Shown here one piece after another: positions 32,500-41,203 of a DNA stretch of 64,000 nt. The DNA is from Polytrichum commune (taxonomy: Eukaryota > Streptophyta > Polytrichopsida > Polytrichales > Polytrichaceae), in assembly GCA_950295325.1 (NCBI GenBank), contig OX485804.1:19094001-19158000 (forward strand), written 5' to 3'. Every line of letters starts with the position of its first letter. Position 1 is the stretch's first letter. Under the pieces are notes generated by a model. The model worked only from the letters and a program-made list of their open reading frames with translations. It was not told the origin of the DNA and searched no databases. A program made the position numbers and the translations under genes.

Positions 32500-35400
32500 T
32501 AGTGTGACTTACACTTTGTTATATTATAGTGTGGTCCACAATGTACATTATCATGCAATAAAATAGCATGAAACCTTACATTTGAGAGAATTGTTTTTAC
32601 ACCAATTTCTTCACATACCCATTCTAGTCAAGCAAATTTACATAGAACTAGATTATTTTGTAGAATATTAATAATTATCAAATTCATATCAATAATTCTT
32701 AATAATGATGTCATGGGAAGAATATTTATTTCAATTTTGTTGAAATCTATCTATGAAATCAAATCAATATTCAAATATTGGATTTGGATCCACCTAGTTA
32801 GGACGGGTATGAATGGATACCACTTTGTTGAAGTTTCAATCACATTACTTCCATCCAATTGAAATACTATAACCCACAACATAGACCTTTGATATTATAT
32901 TATGTGGTTTGGAATTTCGTGTGCATCCACAACAATATCCCTAAAGTTTTTCATGTGGGTCCACATATATTTACCATAAACAATGAAGGAATTCCATCTA
33001 TCACACTTACAACAATTGGCAAGCCATGCAACAAATTCAAGTCATTTTGGGTATGCAATAGACGTTCACATAAAAGGAAAGCTAATTTTAGGATGAAATG
33101 TTGCATTGATTACACAACAAGCGTGATGAACTACACCGGACATAGTGAATACACCAATTGCAAACAACTCATATGATAAATGCATGCTTGACCCTTGCAC
33201 TAAAGTAAGTAGTGTACAAACAGCCTTAAATTAAACCCCTTATCATCCAATGCACTCACATTGTCAACACATGACCTACCTCCTCACCTCATGCACCCAA
33301 CCTATCATCCATGGCCTGCACATAGATAAGCACAATAAAATACTACGCCACATTTAGGAACTACTCCTCACTCATCATTTCACCTTCTAGAAGTGGTTTC
33401 TTAGTGGCACCTATGCTCCCTCCTCCCCAAGCAATTACATTGTCCCAAATTGGATCATCCCTTGACAATGCTCTTGCCCCCCATCGCATGCACAAGCTAC
33501 ACCCTAACATCCTCTTCATTGAGGACCTCCCGACATATGCCCCATTCCTCTCCCACTTTTCCAGCACTCCTATATTCCACTATGTTGACTTCACAAACTG
33601 CCACGACTACTTCCAAAGCCAACCATACAATGGAAACACGACAAATACAACCTTAAGCTCATTGCCTTTGTCGCCCAAGGCTAGAAGGTCCAACCACTCA
33701 TGGTCCTTGCCACACTCACACTCACACTCACACTGATATGCAACTCCTTGACCAATTTACATCACCCATGCTCAAAATTCAAACAATACCAAAATTAATT
33801 AATAATAAAATTAAGTAATAATAAAATTAATTAATAATAACTCCACACCAATGCCATATGCTCCATGTCGGCATTCATCGTAAATACGTGCAAACTACAA
33901 AGTAATAAGTGCCCCCTCCAACAGACCCCTTAAGCACCCCACCACATCCCACTTGACAAGCTTACAACTAGGGCCGTAACACATGGAGCCCAACAAAATC
34001 ATATATATGTTCACAACACCTACCAACGTGGAGGATAAAAAACATTGGTTTTTATATAGGAGTCGGATCTATTATTTATAGATAATGTAACACCTCAACT
34101 GGGATCAAAGACCCCCAAATTCATCATTTGAGGTTGATTTAATATGAATCAACAATAAACCTATAGAGGCAAATGTTTACAATACCCTGATGGTAGGTGT
34201 TAGGAATGAAATCCAACAAAAACCTGAAAATTGCAAAAATAGTTGGTGTAAACCAAGGACTGGTTCAACCAAGGGATATCACCTCATCGCGTTACTATGT
34301 ACATTCTTATGAGACCTATTGGGTTTCGAATCACCTTGGATAGATGCCACAATCCCCACCAACGAGCTTATTGAACCCCAAGGTGTCCAACCACATGTGG
34401 ACTCTCCTACTTGATACCCCTCGCCTCATTTGGCCATGATTGACATGGCCCAATTTTATTTTTATTCTAACCAATTACCTTGCATAGGCTTGTCATTTAT
34501 GCTTGCTCTGAAAGCAACCAAAGTTTCTATCCACTCATACCCTCATTTATGACATTAATGAAATTGAGGTTGATTGTAGGATTTGAAATGACACAAAATA
34601 ATCTCGATGCAAAGATGTTGGCCAATTGGTCCACTTTAGAACATTGTTGTTACGGGCCACGATTGGACGCTCACCTCTTTGAGTTGGGCTCTTAACCATT
34701 ATTACCGATTTGAAGGGGTAGTAAAAATAGGTTTTTATAGGTTTGTGGTTAATTTATCTTGAGTGGGTCCTTGTAGACTTTACTTTGGGACCGGTGTTGA
34801 TAAGAATGGGGTCAAATTGCCTAAAAGTATAAACATACGTGCTACAATAGATTCTTTTTGCATTCTCGCCACGTTCCTTGTGTATTCTCAAAGGTACAAT
34901 AGGAATATATGCATAATACTTATAGCCCCTCAATATTATTCATTTGTCGCACGTGGTATGAATAAGTTCTACATAGTGTACCCCGTGAGAGTGTGTATTT
35001 GGAGGGTGCGATAGAGAATTTGGGTTCAAGTCATGATCATATCCTATGTGTTTGTATTGTCCCTTCCCAAATATTTAGTTTCTCAATTTTAGGGTGCCTC
35101 AATTGAGGTTTTTTTTATTGGTTTTGCAATTAGAAGAAAATATTGTCAGTGAGTTTAACGGCTTTAGAAGTTAATTGGACAAAATTAATCCAACGGCATG
35201 ATGGTATACTCCTTCCTTTGGATTACGTTGAGAAGTGGAGGATCCAACCGTGGTCAAAAACATTTTAACCCATGTTTAGGAGGAAGACACCATTCACTAA
35301 ATCATCTAAACTCTTGGATTAATGAGGTGGTGAGATTGCCATAAAAAAAATTATATGGGGTAGATGCACCTATTATTGCGCATTTAAGGACTCGGCCACG

Positions 35401-37200
35401 TGTATAAACCACAATTTAGGGATATTCTCGGAACTTATTACATGAAAATTGGAAAGATATGTGTGAGCCCAAAACGGTGCCCACATGTGTGGTTACCCTC
35501 AAAAGTTATTAGGATTTGTTCCTTTTTATTGTGATTGCTATTTCAAAACTAAAAAGAGTGTAACCCTTGGGTTTAGTGTGTTTTTGTGTTAACAAGTGAA
35601 TTACGTCACTTGTGTGTTGTGAGAGGGTTAGTGTTAATTAGATTTAGTTAAAGTGATTGTAGTTAGTACTTTTGCTATTTGGGAAGGGAATGTGAGCTTT
35701 GAGCTTTAAGGTTGGGTTAGGTGCCCGAATTGGGTTTGGAAGCTGCCCACATTGGGACCGGGGGTTGATTGAATTAGGATGTAGCCTTGTTAGAATCAGG
35801 TAAGGGGTAAGCCTTGCAGGGCGGAAAGAACACTGGATTTCCGGGATGGATCAGCTGCGAGGTAGTCAGGAGCGGCAACTCGCTGCGATGAAGTTTTTTT
35901 TTTTTTTTTGGCACTTAAGCATCTGTGTAATGGGATTGAAGGTCGAAGGAGCATCAAAGAGCTCGAAGCTCCTGAATTGGGATTGAAGGTCGAAGGAGGA
36001 ATGCCAGAGAGCTCGAAGGCTCCTGGGAGGGGATTAGAGGTTGAATGCGGAGGCTCCGAGCTCAGAGTGAGCCCCCTTGGCCGACTGCTGGGTTTTTGAG
36101 CGAGTTGGGAGAAGCTCATGGATCCGGAGAAGGTCCCTAGTCGCCGAAGCTATGACACCTGCACTGGGCACTGGTGACGGGCAGTGACGGGCTGGGCCCC
36201 GAGCCCAACAGTGCTAAATCACGGATTAACCACCAAGATTGAAGTTGACTTAGGGTGGGGGGTTGGTAGTATTAATACTATATTATATTGTGGGCTAGTT
36301 AATTAGGCTAAAGGCGAAGGATTAAAACTAGGAAAATAGATTATTAGGGAATTAGGGGGCCACCAAGGGCAAGGTGGTGACATTAGGGAGTGGACCTTAG
36401 GTGGGGATTTGTGTGTGGGGTTGTGAGAGAGTGTAGGAAGAGGGTAATAATAGAGATCTAGAAGAGCATTTTTTAATGCTTGTACTCTTATTATGGAATA
36501 AAACAATGTGCCAATATTGATGTGGAATGCGGTGGAGGTTGATGACGTCGAAGAAATAGAATGATGTAAGTAATGAATGTGAGCTACATGCCCCCACCCG
36601 GACTACGACGCATAAGGGTGGGTGGTTTGGCATCACAATATGAATTGATTTTATTAGTGTTTTTTCAAAATTTAATTTTGTAATGTATGACATCTCGATG
36701 TAAGAATTCAAAGAGGTAGGTTTTAAGCTACTTTTGAAAGGTCAAATCACCTATGTTTGCGCATGATGTCCCTATGATTGCGCACCATGTGCTTGACACT
36801 TAGGATGCTTCTTGACACTCATAATCCGAGCTTTCTATCAAAATGCTTGCCTATCTATCAGAAGTTTAATGTAGCCAGATGTGTTTGTGAAATTTTCAAA
36901 CTTGAGTGCAAATTACGAAATACGCTGCACAATATACAAAGATGCACACACAGTATGATTTAAATGGCAAATAAATTATTTTAACCAACTCAATAAAAAA
37001 TGAAAACTTTGCACACTGAAAGTATGTTCACACATGTTTTTTACACATGCATTGCACCAAATATAGTAAGCTTATGAAAAAGCAAAGGAGTGTAATTGCT
37101 TCAATACCAACAACCAGTCTTTGGGTGACGTGCACCTGCAAGATATCTACTACACGTATCACATATAGATGGGATGTGACGGCCTCTCATATGACAACTC
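32500..37200. other. Mostly unrecognised intergenic DNA
   Basis: AT-rich to about 33200, then a possible coding fragment (33404-33736), then DNA without recognisable genes. A three-unit, 47-51-base tandem repeat lies at about 35930-36080 (GGGATTGAAGGTCGAAGGAG units). TGTAACACCTCAA at about 34086 resembles an LTR edge, but no matching LTR was found. Confidence 0.4.
33404..33736 (+). other. Possible coding fragment of unknown family
   Basis: An open frame of about 110 codons with protein-like composition (KLHPNILFIEDLPTYAPFLS, IFHYVDFTNCHDYF). Near the end the adjacent frame reads plausibly on (KYNLKLIAFVAQG), suggesting a frameshift at about 33640. The tail is an artefact of CACTCA repeats. 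I do not recognise the family. It could be a remnant of a gene or a transposon-encoded protein. Confidence 0.3.
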
Positions 37201-37236
37201 TAGTATTTTGTTTGCAATCGAACTAAATCACCATAC

Positions 37237-37275
37237 CTACACAAAATATGATATTTAGTGTTTGATACACTATAT
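37237..37275. repeat. Isolated CACTA-like terminal repeat
   Basis: TACACAAAATATGATATTTA followed by GTGTTTGATACACTA matches the inverted end of the element at 7769-8107. The partner end was not found. Confidence 0.5.
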
Positions 37276-37599
37276 ATGAACATAATCCTACTAAAAAAAT
37301 GGAATATAATCCTGGAACACAACAAGTCACTGCTCAAACTCCAAGTTGGACGGCTCAGGCCTTTATAGAAACCGTAAATTCCATTACAGCCAGAATCAAA
37401 ACGACCATCAGGTCTGTCTGGAGCCGTCCTTCTCCCAGACATAAAAAAAAATCTTATTGCCTTGCTAAGGTTCCGTTGGTAACAACCTACACCCATGAAC
37501 CATAAACACATGTTAATGCATTGCAGTGGATAATCTCACCAATTAAGAAATTCACTACAGTCCGTCCCTAACTCTAAACACTTGAGTCAACAACCCCTC

Positions 37600-38040
37600 A
37601 ACATAATTATTTACCTAATTTTGTCCAGTTTCCGTCACTTCCAATGAATTCGATAAGTCTTGAGAGGCGAAAGGTGTCACAAAGGTTCTATGTCGTTTAG
37701 AAATGATATGCGGGAATTTATTCTTTGTGGCCATAGAACCTTTGGTGCTCCTCATGTAACACCTCTTCTTCACAATTGTATCAATATCTTTCTTCACCTT
37801 TTTAACCTGGGCTACCTTCTCTTTCTCTTTCTTGATAAGGGCCTTTGATAATTTTTGTTATTTAGAAATGAGTTGTTTCTCTAGTTTAGCTTTATTTTTT
37901 TAGCTTAATTTGTTCTTTGTGATTTATAAACTTAAGAGACGTAACCAATTTCCTCGTTGCAATTTCACGAAAGATGCTCAATTTTGTCTCCCGAATCTTG
38001 TACTGAGGAACATCCAAAATTTTGGATAGAGATCCTACAA
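37600..38040 (-). other. Possible Lys-rich coiled-coil 3' exons of the same gene
   Basis: Downstream on the minus strand, after a TTTGTAG acceptor, LSKILDVPQYKIRETKLSIF can be read. After a further break comes a Lys/Glu-rich helical stretch (LIKKEKEKVAQVKKVKKDID). This could be a C-terminal extension of the Ulp1-like gene or unrelated. Stops separate the pieces. Confidence 0.3.
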
Positions 38041-38240
38041 ACATAACCATAAGTTAGTAAATGTTCACAACAACAAACAATCAAAAGCTTTAAGTAAACT
38101 TTTTAAGAGTGTTTAAAAAAGGGTATTATTTACAAAATTGTCGTCAAATTCCTTCTTTGATCCAAACTGTGGATTCAAATTGTTGTTATATTCACTTTTT
38201 GCTTCAAATTGCTCCATTATGGTTATTTGGATTTTCCCCC

Positions 38241-41203
38241 TTAAATTTGAAGCTTCAATTGGTGACACCAAGTATCATTGAACAAGTCATATAAGTTATG
38301 GTAAATTATCAAATTTTGAGGTGCAGCTTCCAAAGACTTCTCAATATAATGGAGCAAAAAGAGCCCACAATCAGTGTCATTATCCTGCAAATGAATCTAT
38401 TAAATGAATTAGACAATGAGCTTAATACATGTAATAATTCCAATGTATTTATTTCAACACTTAAGTAGAATATTGAAAGTTTATTTCTGTATGTACTTAC
38501 TGATACTCTTTTGTGCAAGATTTCCTTTGTGATTGTTGCATGGTCTTCTTTCTCACCAACTCCAACAATAGAATGTCATTCCCAGATAAGGTACCTACAA
38601 ACAAAACAATAAATTGATGAGTTACCATATTGTAATCAATAAGGTTCCTGGTAAAGTTGACTAAATTGGAACATTAAATTACCATTTCAGATGATATTTT
38701 TCAATTGCCATTGTAGCTAACTTATATCTATTTATAAATCAATGATTTCTAAAGAGATATGACTTTTGCAACTTACATTTTCAGAACATCAAATATCAAA
38801 TTACTATCATGACCTTGATTCATTGAATTCAAATGCACAATGATCTGTTCCGAAAAATCCATTTGGCCAGGTTGTATGATTGTCATACTCCAATGGAGAC
38901 TAGCAAGAATCACAAAAAAGAAAAAGGTTAATTATCTACAAATAATCACATATGAATTATACATTCAATGGAAACTTACAAAAGGATATGAGTAATTGTT
39001 TCTCACTTGTCATGTATTGGGACAAAGAGATAGTCTTTTGAGAGTATTTGAATTCCCTTGGTCCACTTCTTGAGGTCTTGAAAATCCAAACAACACTTTG
39101 TTTTTATATAAAAAAAACAATTGAAAAAATACAACTTCTCTCTCCATTCCTGGTCCAAAATTTGTTGTGTGAATGTGCCTATGTTCACAACACAATATAA
39201 TTAGGACATGGATCAGTGACATACAAGAAACCAAATTAACATGGGTTTAAAAGATTTCAATACCTAAAGTAAAAGTCAATGACTGTGTCATTTAGGAACT
39301 GATCAGGATCCAAAGCATGGACATCTGCCCATGTTATTTCAATCGGTCCAACACATTCCCTGTTCCACCCAACCCAAAACCTTTTAGTTCAATGACAACA
39401 AATCATAAACTAAGCACTTAACAACATTGATCCATCAATGAAATAAAGTAAATATTACCTCTTTGTTTCCATGGCATTGTTGTTGACATCAACTTTAGAG
39501 GTAAACACTATAGAAGGTCCACATTCATCATCCATAGCATGCACATTCAGTGGATATATGTCAGTTTTTCTGAAACCAGCTTGAATGTTTGACACAGTAA
39601 GGGCCTCTTTTAAGGCAATACTTGCCAATTCAGCAAGGTAGGTCTTGTCAAAGCTTCCATTTGCCCATGTTACGTTAGCATTAATGAACCTTTCTTTTAT
39701 GCTAATGAAATTGCATTTAAAAGATTTGAAAATGGACACATCCAATGGTTGCATCCTGTGTGTCGTATGGGAAGGTAATAATCCAATGTCAATCCCATAA
39801 GTTGCTGCCTTGTTAACCACATTATAGCTAATGTGGCTAGCATGTCCATCAAGCAACAGAAGGTGTTTTCTCTCAAGAGAAACGCCTCCAGGCACAAAAT
39901 CTCTGAAATGGTCTAACCATTCACAAAATATTTCTTCATTTATCCAACCCTTATCTTGAAATGCCATCTTTGCATTCGGTTTGCATCGCTCAATGTAGTC
40001 CTTTCGCTTCCTACCCTTTGACTTGAAAATGTAGAGATTTGGAATGCTATATCCCATGGCATTCACACATACGAGAATTGTCATCCACTTCCGATCGCTG
40101 CCGTTGGTAGTCATAACATTTTTTGACCCTTTAATTCCAATAACCTTGATGCTGCTATTTGTTTGACCAGCACTCAAACCGCTCTCATCTGCATTCCATA
40201 TCCGACATGGAGGATATTTTCCTTCTTCATATATAGTAGTCAGAAATCTGTAAAACTTATCACATGCCTCTTTTGATAAGCCTTGAGCTCTTGCAAGATC
40301 CAAATTCTCTGGTCTACGAAGCGTCAACCATGGATGCCACTTTTGAAACCAATGCCACCAACTTCTACCAGGTATACCTTCACGAAAGGGTATTAATCTA
40401 TCGCTGCAAATTTGCTTTACTTTACCCTTAAGAAGAGTTAAGGAGGCACAATGAGCTACATTTTGTCTAATCTCACACCATTCAACCAGTTGTTTCTCTT
40501 CCTCTGATGTAATAATAGTCTTTGGTCCACTTCTCTTTGATTTTACCTTTCCGCTTTGCCAGGCAAGAATAATGGACTCAAGAATATTGTGATGCCGTGA
40601 GGCCTCTCTAAGTTTCATTCTTCCACTTTGGATGTCCAACAATGTTGCTCTCATTGATTCTTCTGTCCACAACCCCCGTCTCTTCACATGTTTGGCAGGT
40701 TTCACCGATGACTTCTGTGGTGGTTTAGATGGCTTGGTTTCCAAATGCTCTTGTGACGTCTTGCATGGACCGCTCCGTCCCCTTGTGCTACCCCACTGCA
40801 AAATGATTTTAGAATGAGGCTCTCCCGCTATGTCCATGACTTTCAATGTTATACACAACTTCGGCGATCCAAGAACCTCGAGATCCAACGGTGGGGAATA
40901 CAAGAATGTGCAAACATAGGTGTATGCTGCGCAACCATGGGGTTTTTCGCAGTGATAGGCACACATACCATACATGTAACTTTTGTAATGATCCTCTAGG
41001 TGCATTCCATCGCCATTTTTGGTAATTGAGTTATACTTGAATGTACCTAAATATGTTGTTGTGCTTTTTACTAGGCACATGAAAGAGAACTCATGGCTTT
41101 GAATGCCGTATTGGTGAACTCCCTTCCACAAATTTTGTCGGTATGGGTTGAAGAAGGTCATTTTCCCATATACATTCCTTCGCAATTCAAAACATGGTAC
41201 CAT
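38241..41203 (-). CDS. pogo/Tigger-like transposase spliced in frame to a Ulp1 (C48) protease domain; probably decaying
   Basis: The long exon (41203 to about 39459, up to 582 codons) encodes a pogo transposase. Residues 1-170 are unassigned. A psq-type helix-turn-helix lies at about 178-220, a CENP-B-type DNA-binding part at about 234-310, and a DDE_1 catalytic domain has Asp339 (IWNADESG), Asp452 (LLLLDGHASH) and Asp488 (MQPLDVSIF). The frame meets a good donor (AAAGAG/GTAATA). Five more exons follow: 39264-39359 (DPDQFLNDTVIDFYF), 39007-39178 (YFFNCFFYIKTK, KDYLFVPIHD), 38777-38899 (LHWSMTII, catalytic His), 38501-38594 and 38241-38384 (DTDCGLFLLHYIEK, catalytic Cys). This is a Ulp1-type SUMO-protease order. 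All splice phases agree except exon 2 to exon 3; one TGA lies at 38576-38578; the usual catalytic Asp is Asn (HLNS). The true start is unclear, because the 5' end overlaps another gene fragment. Possibly pogo element plus captured protease, or fusion by insertion. Confidence 0.8.

Follow-up and report, generated by a model that had tools for sequence, protein, structure and literature searches.

Sequence comparison across the genome of Polytrichum commune indicates that the fusion of a pogo-type transposase with a Ulp1-type SUMO-protease domain is real, and that it is best seen outside the window (the whole stretch of DNA analysed, 64,000 nucleotides), in a sister family of the window element. 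Taking the evidence together, we consider it probable that a pogo transposase gene captured a host domain of the ULP2/SENP7 type, that the two families took it up separately, that the window copy has decayed and that the captured domain has a SUMO-related role.

The window element

The element lies on the minus strand and comprises the following features.

35358..40970, minus strand: whole pogo-type element with transposase and Ulp1; ends common to four dispersed copies
40948..40970, minus strand: 5' terminal inverted repeat (TIR), TGGTATGTGTGCCTATCACTGCG, preceded by TA at 40971-40972
39459..40837, minus strand: first exon, from a putative start ATG at 40837, encoding an HTH region and the DDE_1 transposase (D, D, D; DD35D)
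39264..39359, minus strand: first Ulp1 exon, IEITWADVHALDPDQFLNDTVIDFYF; joins exon 1 in phase
39007..39178, minus strand: second Ulp1 exon; the junction before it (exon 2 to 3) breaks the phase
38777..38899, minus strand: Ulp1 exon that holds the catalytic His (LHWS) and the HLNS motif, with Asn in place of the catalytic Asp
38501..38594, minus strand: Ulp1 exon with in-frame TGA (exon 5), common to the sister at C1:7071596-7073912
38241..38384, minus strand: last Ulp1 exon, holding the catalytic Cys, DNDTDCGLFLLHYIE, and closed by TAA 38243-38241
37892..38034, minus strand: possible transposase C-terminal tail, LSKILDVPQYKIRETK...LVTSLKF, its likeness to other pogo tails judged by eye only
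35462..36637, no strand assigned: solo-LTR-like insertion of 1176 bp, TG...CA, absent from the C1:7.07 Mb sister
35358..35380, minus strand: 3' terminal inverted repeat, reading inward GGGTAGATGCACCTATTATTGCG

A sequence-only reading of this DNA had described a long transposase frame with three catalytic Asp motifs, ending at a donor whose next AG acceptor restores the frame into exons with the Ulp1 His and Cys signatures. All of these elements were recovered. The minus-strand frame 41242-39455 has 595 aa, closes at TAA 39457-39455 as had been given, and contains WNADESG, LLDGHASH and QPLDVSIF, with a D2-D3 spacing of 35 (DD35D) that is also found in the C1:55.23 Mb copy of the sister family. 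Pfam identifies DDE_1 in it (E 3.1e-21), together with a weak Tc5-type HTH (E 0.015) and no psq. No match was obtained for the transposase part among solved structures at E 0.1, or by tblastn of the transposase against a plasmid collection. The donor AAAGAG/GTAATA and the acceptor ACAG/GGAATG are both present and in phase, and the five joined Ulp1 exons (with X at the TGA) match Peptidase_C48 with E 1.3e-18 (68 bits, cut-off 20.7).

The out-of-phase junction, the TGA and the HLNS motif, which the same reading had listed as signs that the copy may be dead while relatives are active, are real, and the VPQQ-type Gln is missing from the window Ulp1. Judged from its letters, the window copy is decayed and looks dead, and the C1:55.23 Mb relative reads intact; HLNS is nevertheless not a death mark by itself, because it occurs in 5/5 sister-family copies, where Ulp1 is under purifying selection. 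The splicing of transposase to Ulp1 was the central claim of that reading. Joined domains stand in the relatives, whereas in the window copy itself we can only infer the fusion, because of the out-of-phase junction, the TGA, the lost Gln and a tail that escapes profile detection.

The ends of the element were found by comparison of copies; only short matches came from searching for inverted repeats directly around the window. A 101-bp piece (35361-35461) is present at nine genomic places including the window, at full length and 96-100% identity, and five of the eight other places also match a piece near the window 5' end. Four of them were examined; these dispersed copies have TA on both sides and interiors unlike that of the window element. 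Aligned with the window, their inverted ends read (T/G)GGTATGTGTGCCTATCACTGCG at the 5' side and GGGTAGATGCACCTATTATTGCGC at the 3' side, adjoining TA, and since they line up across the window and the four copies, the element is taken to be 35358-40970. The only CA is the outer dinucleotide at the window 3' side (gene strand), where 4/4 relatives examined with both ends have TA. CAGT ends, which had been proposed together with TA duplications, are ruled out by the ends found in both families ((T/G)GGTATG / GGGTAG here, T(C/T)GTA in the sister family), while the TA duplications were found. The span first assigned to the gene, 38241-41203, also needs correcting, since the element extends past 38241 and does not include the part of the frame upstream of 40970; because that part falls outside the 5' TIR, the ATG at 40837 would be the likely start.

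A 5-bp duplication (ATATG at 35457-35461 and 36638-36642) flanks the solo-LTR-like insertion. The truncated sister at C1:7071596-7073912, 89% alike over 2.2 kb, begins at window position 38844, inside the His/HLNS exon and beyond the His codon, and keeps the last Ulp1 exons and the element's 3' end. Two loci, at C5:28.99 Mb and C2:70.19 Mb, have window-family TIRs and a TA duplication; the former contains protein-kinase fragments, the latter is 98% alike across 2 kb of interior, and their make-up indicates gene capture by pogo-type ends.

A sister family with both domains in one predicted gene

The genome searched was a 408-Mb assembly of 64 contigs; its 58 matches to the chlorophyll a/b-binding family mark a photosynthetic eukaryote. 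The transposase gave at least 76 matches, merged to at least 65 pogo loci, and Ulp1 matches were merged to at least 72 loci, both locus counts being lower bounds. At 5 of the 65 pogo loci listed, the window included, Ulp1 lies on the same strand less than 2.2 kb downstream, where 0.013 would be expected by chance. The alternative left by the sequence-only reading, that other copies of the transposase always end without the protease, thus fails, and in three loci the join lies within one exon. At the remaining 60 no same-strand Ulp1 was found within 20 kb downstream among the matches listed, and therefore pogo in general has no need of Ulp1. The locus C2:30055057, with a Ulp1 2.9 kb off on the opposite strand, was excluded from the five. 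A sixth copy, 5'-truncated, at C4:17.036 Mb (L035) shows transposase C-terminus, Ulp1 and tail in the same order, with stops. The 65 or more loci fall into numerous pogo lineages that have diverged from one another; long open frames are kept in some (L002, 682 aa; L008, 919 aa), and a psq HTH exceeds the Pfam cut-off in L002, L005 and L008.

In three of the five sister-family copies read (L019, L020, L021), a single uninterrupted frame takes in both the C-terminus of the transposase and the first half of Ulp1, and therefore the splice assumption is unneeded there; in L022 the frame runs into Ulp1 and then leaves it. Transposase and Ulp1 also recur together between TIRs, a check that the sequence-only reading had proposed, in three relatives that are flanked by TA at either end (coordinates include the TA):

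C1:55227696-55233196: sister-family element with both TIRs
C2:39128270-39134327: sister-family element with both TIRs
C6:30749260-30754072: sister-family element with both TIRs

In the C1 copy their TIR reads inward TCGTAGACAGGCTACTAACCG, and the other two copies have variants of it. Between window family and sister family 12/25 TIR positions are identical (shuffle p 0.01), which is too weak for use. About 16 kb of other DNA interrupts the C4 copy, whose left TIR was not found.

The copy at C1:55.23 Mb has seven predicted exons at C1:55231249-55227913, all GT-AG, encoding 849 aa with no stop, and the end of this frame lies some 0.2 kb away from that of the 3' TIR. The Ulp1 part occupies aa 482-679 of the predicted protein. 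The predicted protein matches DDE_1 (E 3.9e-23) and Peptidase_C48 (E 1.5e-20; 74.4 bits, cut-off 20.7), Tc5 (E 3.3e-4) and psq (E 0.003) HTH models, both below the Pfam cut-off, and one further weak model, SCHIP-1_C; Pfam gave nothing of Mutator and no rve match at E <= 1. The order in one predicted gene is putative HTH, DDE nuclease, Ulp1 and charged tail, within TIRs and TA dinucleotides. Its Ulp1 keeps the protease His, Gln and Cys, the Asp being Asn (HLNS). The best solved relatives are SENP7 (6.7e-21), SENP2 (1.3e-15), SENP1 (3.2e-12) and Ulp2 (8.7e-12), and with SENP7 as the best match the C1 Ulp1 is therefore placed on the ULP2/SENP7 side.

A profile of the sister-family tail was compared with 336 frames (seven pogo loci and the window) and 6720 shuffled sequences. 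L004 came out best (E 2.5e-5, Z=100), a shuffled sequence second (2.2e-4) and L005 third (0.0016), which hints weakly at tail homology to these Ulp1-less pogo copies; the window tail was not found in this search. Between L019 and L020/L021 the transposase halves are 95-96% identical and the Ulp1 halves 75%. The sister family thus looks like a mosaic, as if subfamilies had swapped 3' halves: with 96% identity in DDE and 75% in Ulp1 in the C1/C2 pair, the halves would have recombined.

In the one informative pair, C1 vs C2, on which the test mainly rests, purifying selection on the Ulp1 of the sister family is roughly equal in strength to that on the nuclease. Between these copies Ulp1 has dS 0.67, dN 0.098 and dN/dS 0.145 (95% bootstrap 0.082-0.227; 197 codons), with 0.41 in the linker; a second extraction gave 0.177 (0.105-0.291) for Ulp1, 0.18 (0.107-0.293) for DDE and 0.335 (0.169-0.624) for the tail. 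For C1 vs C4, dN/dS is 0.24 in DDE and 0.19 in Ulp1, and the pairs with C6 and L035 give 0.07-0.25 with saturated dS (1.5-3.4). This selection suggests that the element makes use of the protease part. Since the C2 copy has a broken transposase part and GYWS instead of GHWS, most of the measured selection is presumably older than the death of that copy.

Origin of the Ulp1 domain

Taken by itself, the window copy, with its stop and phase break, could be a pogo copy inserted beside a Ulp1 pseudogene. Chance neighbourhood of this kind is refuted for the sister family on sequence grounds, by five loci against 0.013 expected, three within TIRs and three joined in a single exon; at the window, the truncated C1 copy argues against it too, since both the element's 3' end and the last Ulp1 exons are kept there, and we regard chance neighbourhood as highly improbable. 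The Ulp1 exons might instead be a passenger, host DNA transduplicated in the Pack-type manner and never translated with the transposase. Elements with window-type TIRs do hold other interiors, one of them with protein-kinase fragments, so that these ends capture host DNA, and the window Ulp1 exons resemble, in their match borders, a host-like ULP2-type gene at C4:48.6 Mb with which they also group in trees. Such a reading may hold for the window copy taken alone, but it is quite unlikely as a general account, given that the sister family has one exon with parts of both domains and an Ulp1 with the low dN/dS reported above. Capture into the transposase gene is therefore the reading that we follow.

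Whether there was one such capture or two was addressed with trees of both domains, sampled from one genome and including a degraded window Ulp1. The DDE tree comprised 21 of the 65 loci (the window and 20 others). In it two Ulp1-less loci form the sister group of the window copy and four others that of the sister family, and forcing the Ulp1 bearers together was rejected (AU p 0.0014). The Ulp1 trees held 10 or 9 sequences (L049, L050, E_C4, E_C6, T_C1, L052, L053 and C1:28.98 Mb were left out), in two versions, with or without three unsupported letters of the host-like C4:48.6 Mb peptide. The window and this host-like gene pair apart from the rest, with support of 91, 100, 93 and 99. Forcing the pogo Ulp1s together was rejected with all columns (AU p 0.0043, or 0.0084 without the three letters); with trimmed columns it was rejected once (AU p 0.0133) and not with the cleaned set (0.096). 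We are thus inclined to favour two captures, the window family and the sister family having taken up Ulp1 separately; one capture followed by several losses appears less likely.

Catalytic Asn, possible role and known systems

The triad residue was read at 14 loci. HLNS occurs in 5/5 sister-family copies, in the window copy and in 3/3 Harbinger-linked copies, while HLDS is carried by 4/4 host-like genes and by the truncated window sister; among pogo and Harbinger copies read, 9/10 have Asn at the catalytic Asp. Asp (FHFDS) is also present in L049 and L050, two MULE-like loci with a single frame. In the alignment, the Asn of HLNS falls on the Asp of the corresponding stretch of SENP7, which we take to be the catalytic Asp. 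Because Asn replaces it in 5/5 sister-family copies, SUMO cleavage is uncertain, and we call the domain in pogo a C48 domain and do not claim an active SUMO protease. Asn may be a working state or the sign of a SUMO binder that does not cut.

A pseudoprotease that binds SUMO without cleaving it could serve as a tether to chromatin marked by SUMO, to target sites or to repair foci. The distribution of the residue speaks for this: the sister-family, window and Harbinger-linked copies, the last from an unrelated element, have Asn where host-like genes have Asp, and the domain is under purifying selection. However, papain-type proteases work with a Cys-His-Asn triad, the C1 copy keeps His, Gln and Cys, and Asp is found in the truncated window sister and in L049 and L050; we therefore hold the pseudoprotease to be on the unlikely side. 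In a working model of the captured domain, the DNA-binding (HTH) part of the transposase would bind the TIRs and bring Ulp1 to the ends of the element, where the tethered Ulp1 could remove SUMO from silencing factors, repair factors or the transposase itself, or, if the Asn triad is inactive, bind SUMO instead of removing it. The element would thereby escape silencing or complete transposition. Among these options, and by analogy with the Arabidopsis KIU/VANC genes, we favour the one in which SUMO-dependent silencing would be relieved at the ends of the element itself.

Several transposons carry comparable domains. Kaonashi/KIU (VANC with Ulp1) of Arabidopsis Mutator-like elements causes loss of methylation at related copies (PMC13317346), and ULP-bearing MULEs occur in melon, rice and grapevine (PMC13317346, PMC2528002). 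The present case resembles Kaonashi/KIU in that a plant DNA transposon captured and kept a host Ulp1 domain, but in MULEs Ulp1 is described as a separate gene, in either orientation, whereas the predicted pogo Ulp1 is part of the transposase gene itself, with DDE before it and the tail after it. CACTA-ULP elements of grapevine (PMC2528002) and Chenopodium (PMC8978399) are likewise plant cut-and-paste transposons whose coding region includes Peptidase_C48, and their distribution is scattered; unlike pogo, they are of the Tnp2/Transposase_21 type, and the Chenopodium Ulp1 is in ORF2 (PMC8978399). Closest in layout is perhaps Ginger1 (PMC2836005), with DDE transposase and C-terminal Ulp1 in one protein, often with introns; it differs in its Gypsy-integrase-like nuclease and its animal hosts, the Ulp1 types all being from hydra and the text naming no plant host. 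Crypton C48 elements (PMC3212892) also encode a Ulp1-related peptidase, although with a tyrosine recombinase, in oomycetes and without a DDE nuclease.

The elements fit the pogo superfamily as surveyed in PMC7386202 in their DDE_1 domain, D2-D3 spacing within DD29-56D, TA duplication and short TIRs, and perhaps in their HTH, for which the matches in the window and the C1 copy are weak. That survey gives transposases of 300-977 aa and elements of 1.2-5.2 kb, and among land plants only Lemi, in 23 eudicots; here there are at least 65 pogo loci of several lineages, and the Ulp1-bearing elements measure 4.8, 5.5 and 6.1 kb. The survey's main text contains neither 'Ulp1' nor 'protease'. The sequence-only reading knew of no Ulp1 capture by pogo, and our search of the accessible literature likewise found no report among the matches listed, which leaves priority unproven. 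The pogo superfamily would be added to the transposons known with a SUMO-protease domain (Mutator, CACTA, Ginger, Crypton); here a single predicted reading frame holds both nuclease and Ulp1, and there is evidence of selection on Ulp1. With one predicted intact gene, the question why transposons have captured Ulp1 repeatedly becomes testable.

Another superfamily with Ulp1 is present in the same genome. L024 (C4:25901500-25909500) is a PIF/Harbinger-type element with DDE_Tnp_4, a Myb/SANT ORF and a 28-bp perfect TIR, in which a multi-exon Ulp1 sits between both ORFs. This locus, L052 (C7:39.86 Mb) and L053 (C2:53.89 Mb) are 97-99% alike and all have HLNS. The accessible literature on Ulp1 and Harbinger does not report this combination among the matches listed. 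A broader scheme, with at least two pogo uptakes downstream of DDE and one in PIF/Harbinger, a shift to Cys-His-Asn and a tethered SUMO module acting against silencing, could be drawn from these cases, but we regard it as doubtful. Beyond these elements, at least 32 single-frame Ulp1 loci of 220-290 aa (for example L049 and L050) are dispersed in the genome and intronless, and are possibly carried by Mutator-type elements.
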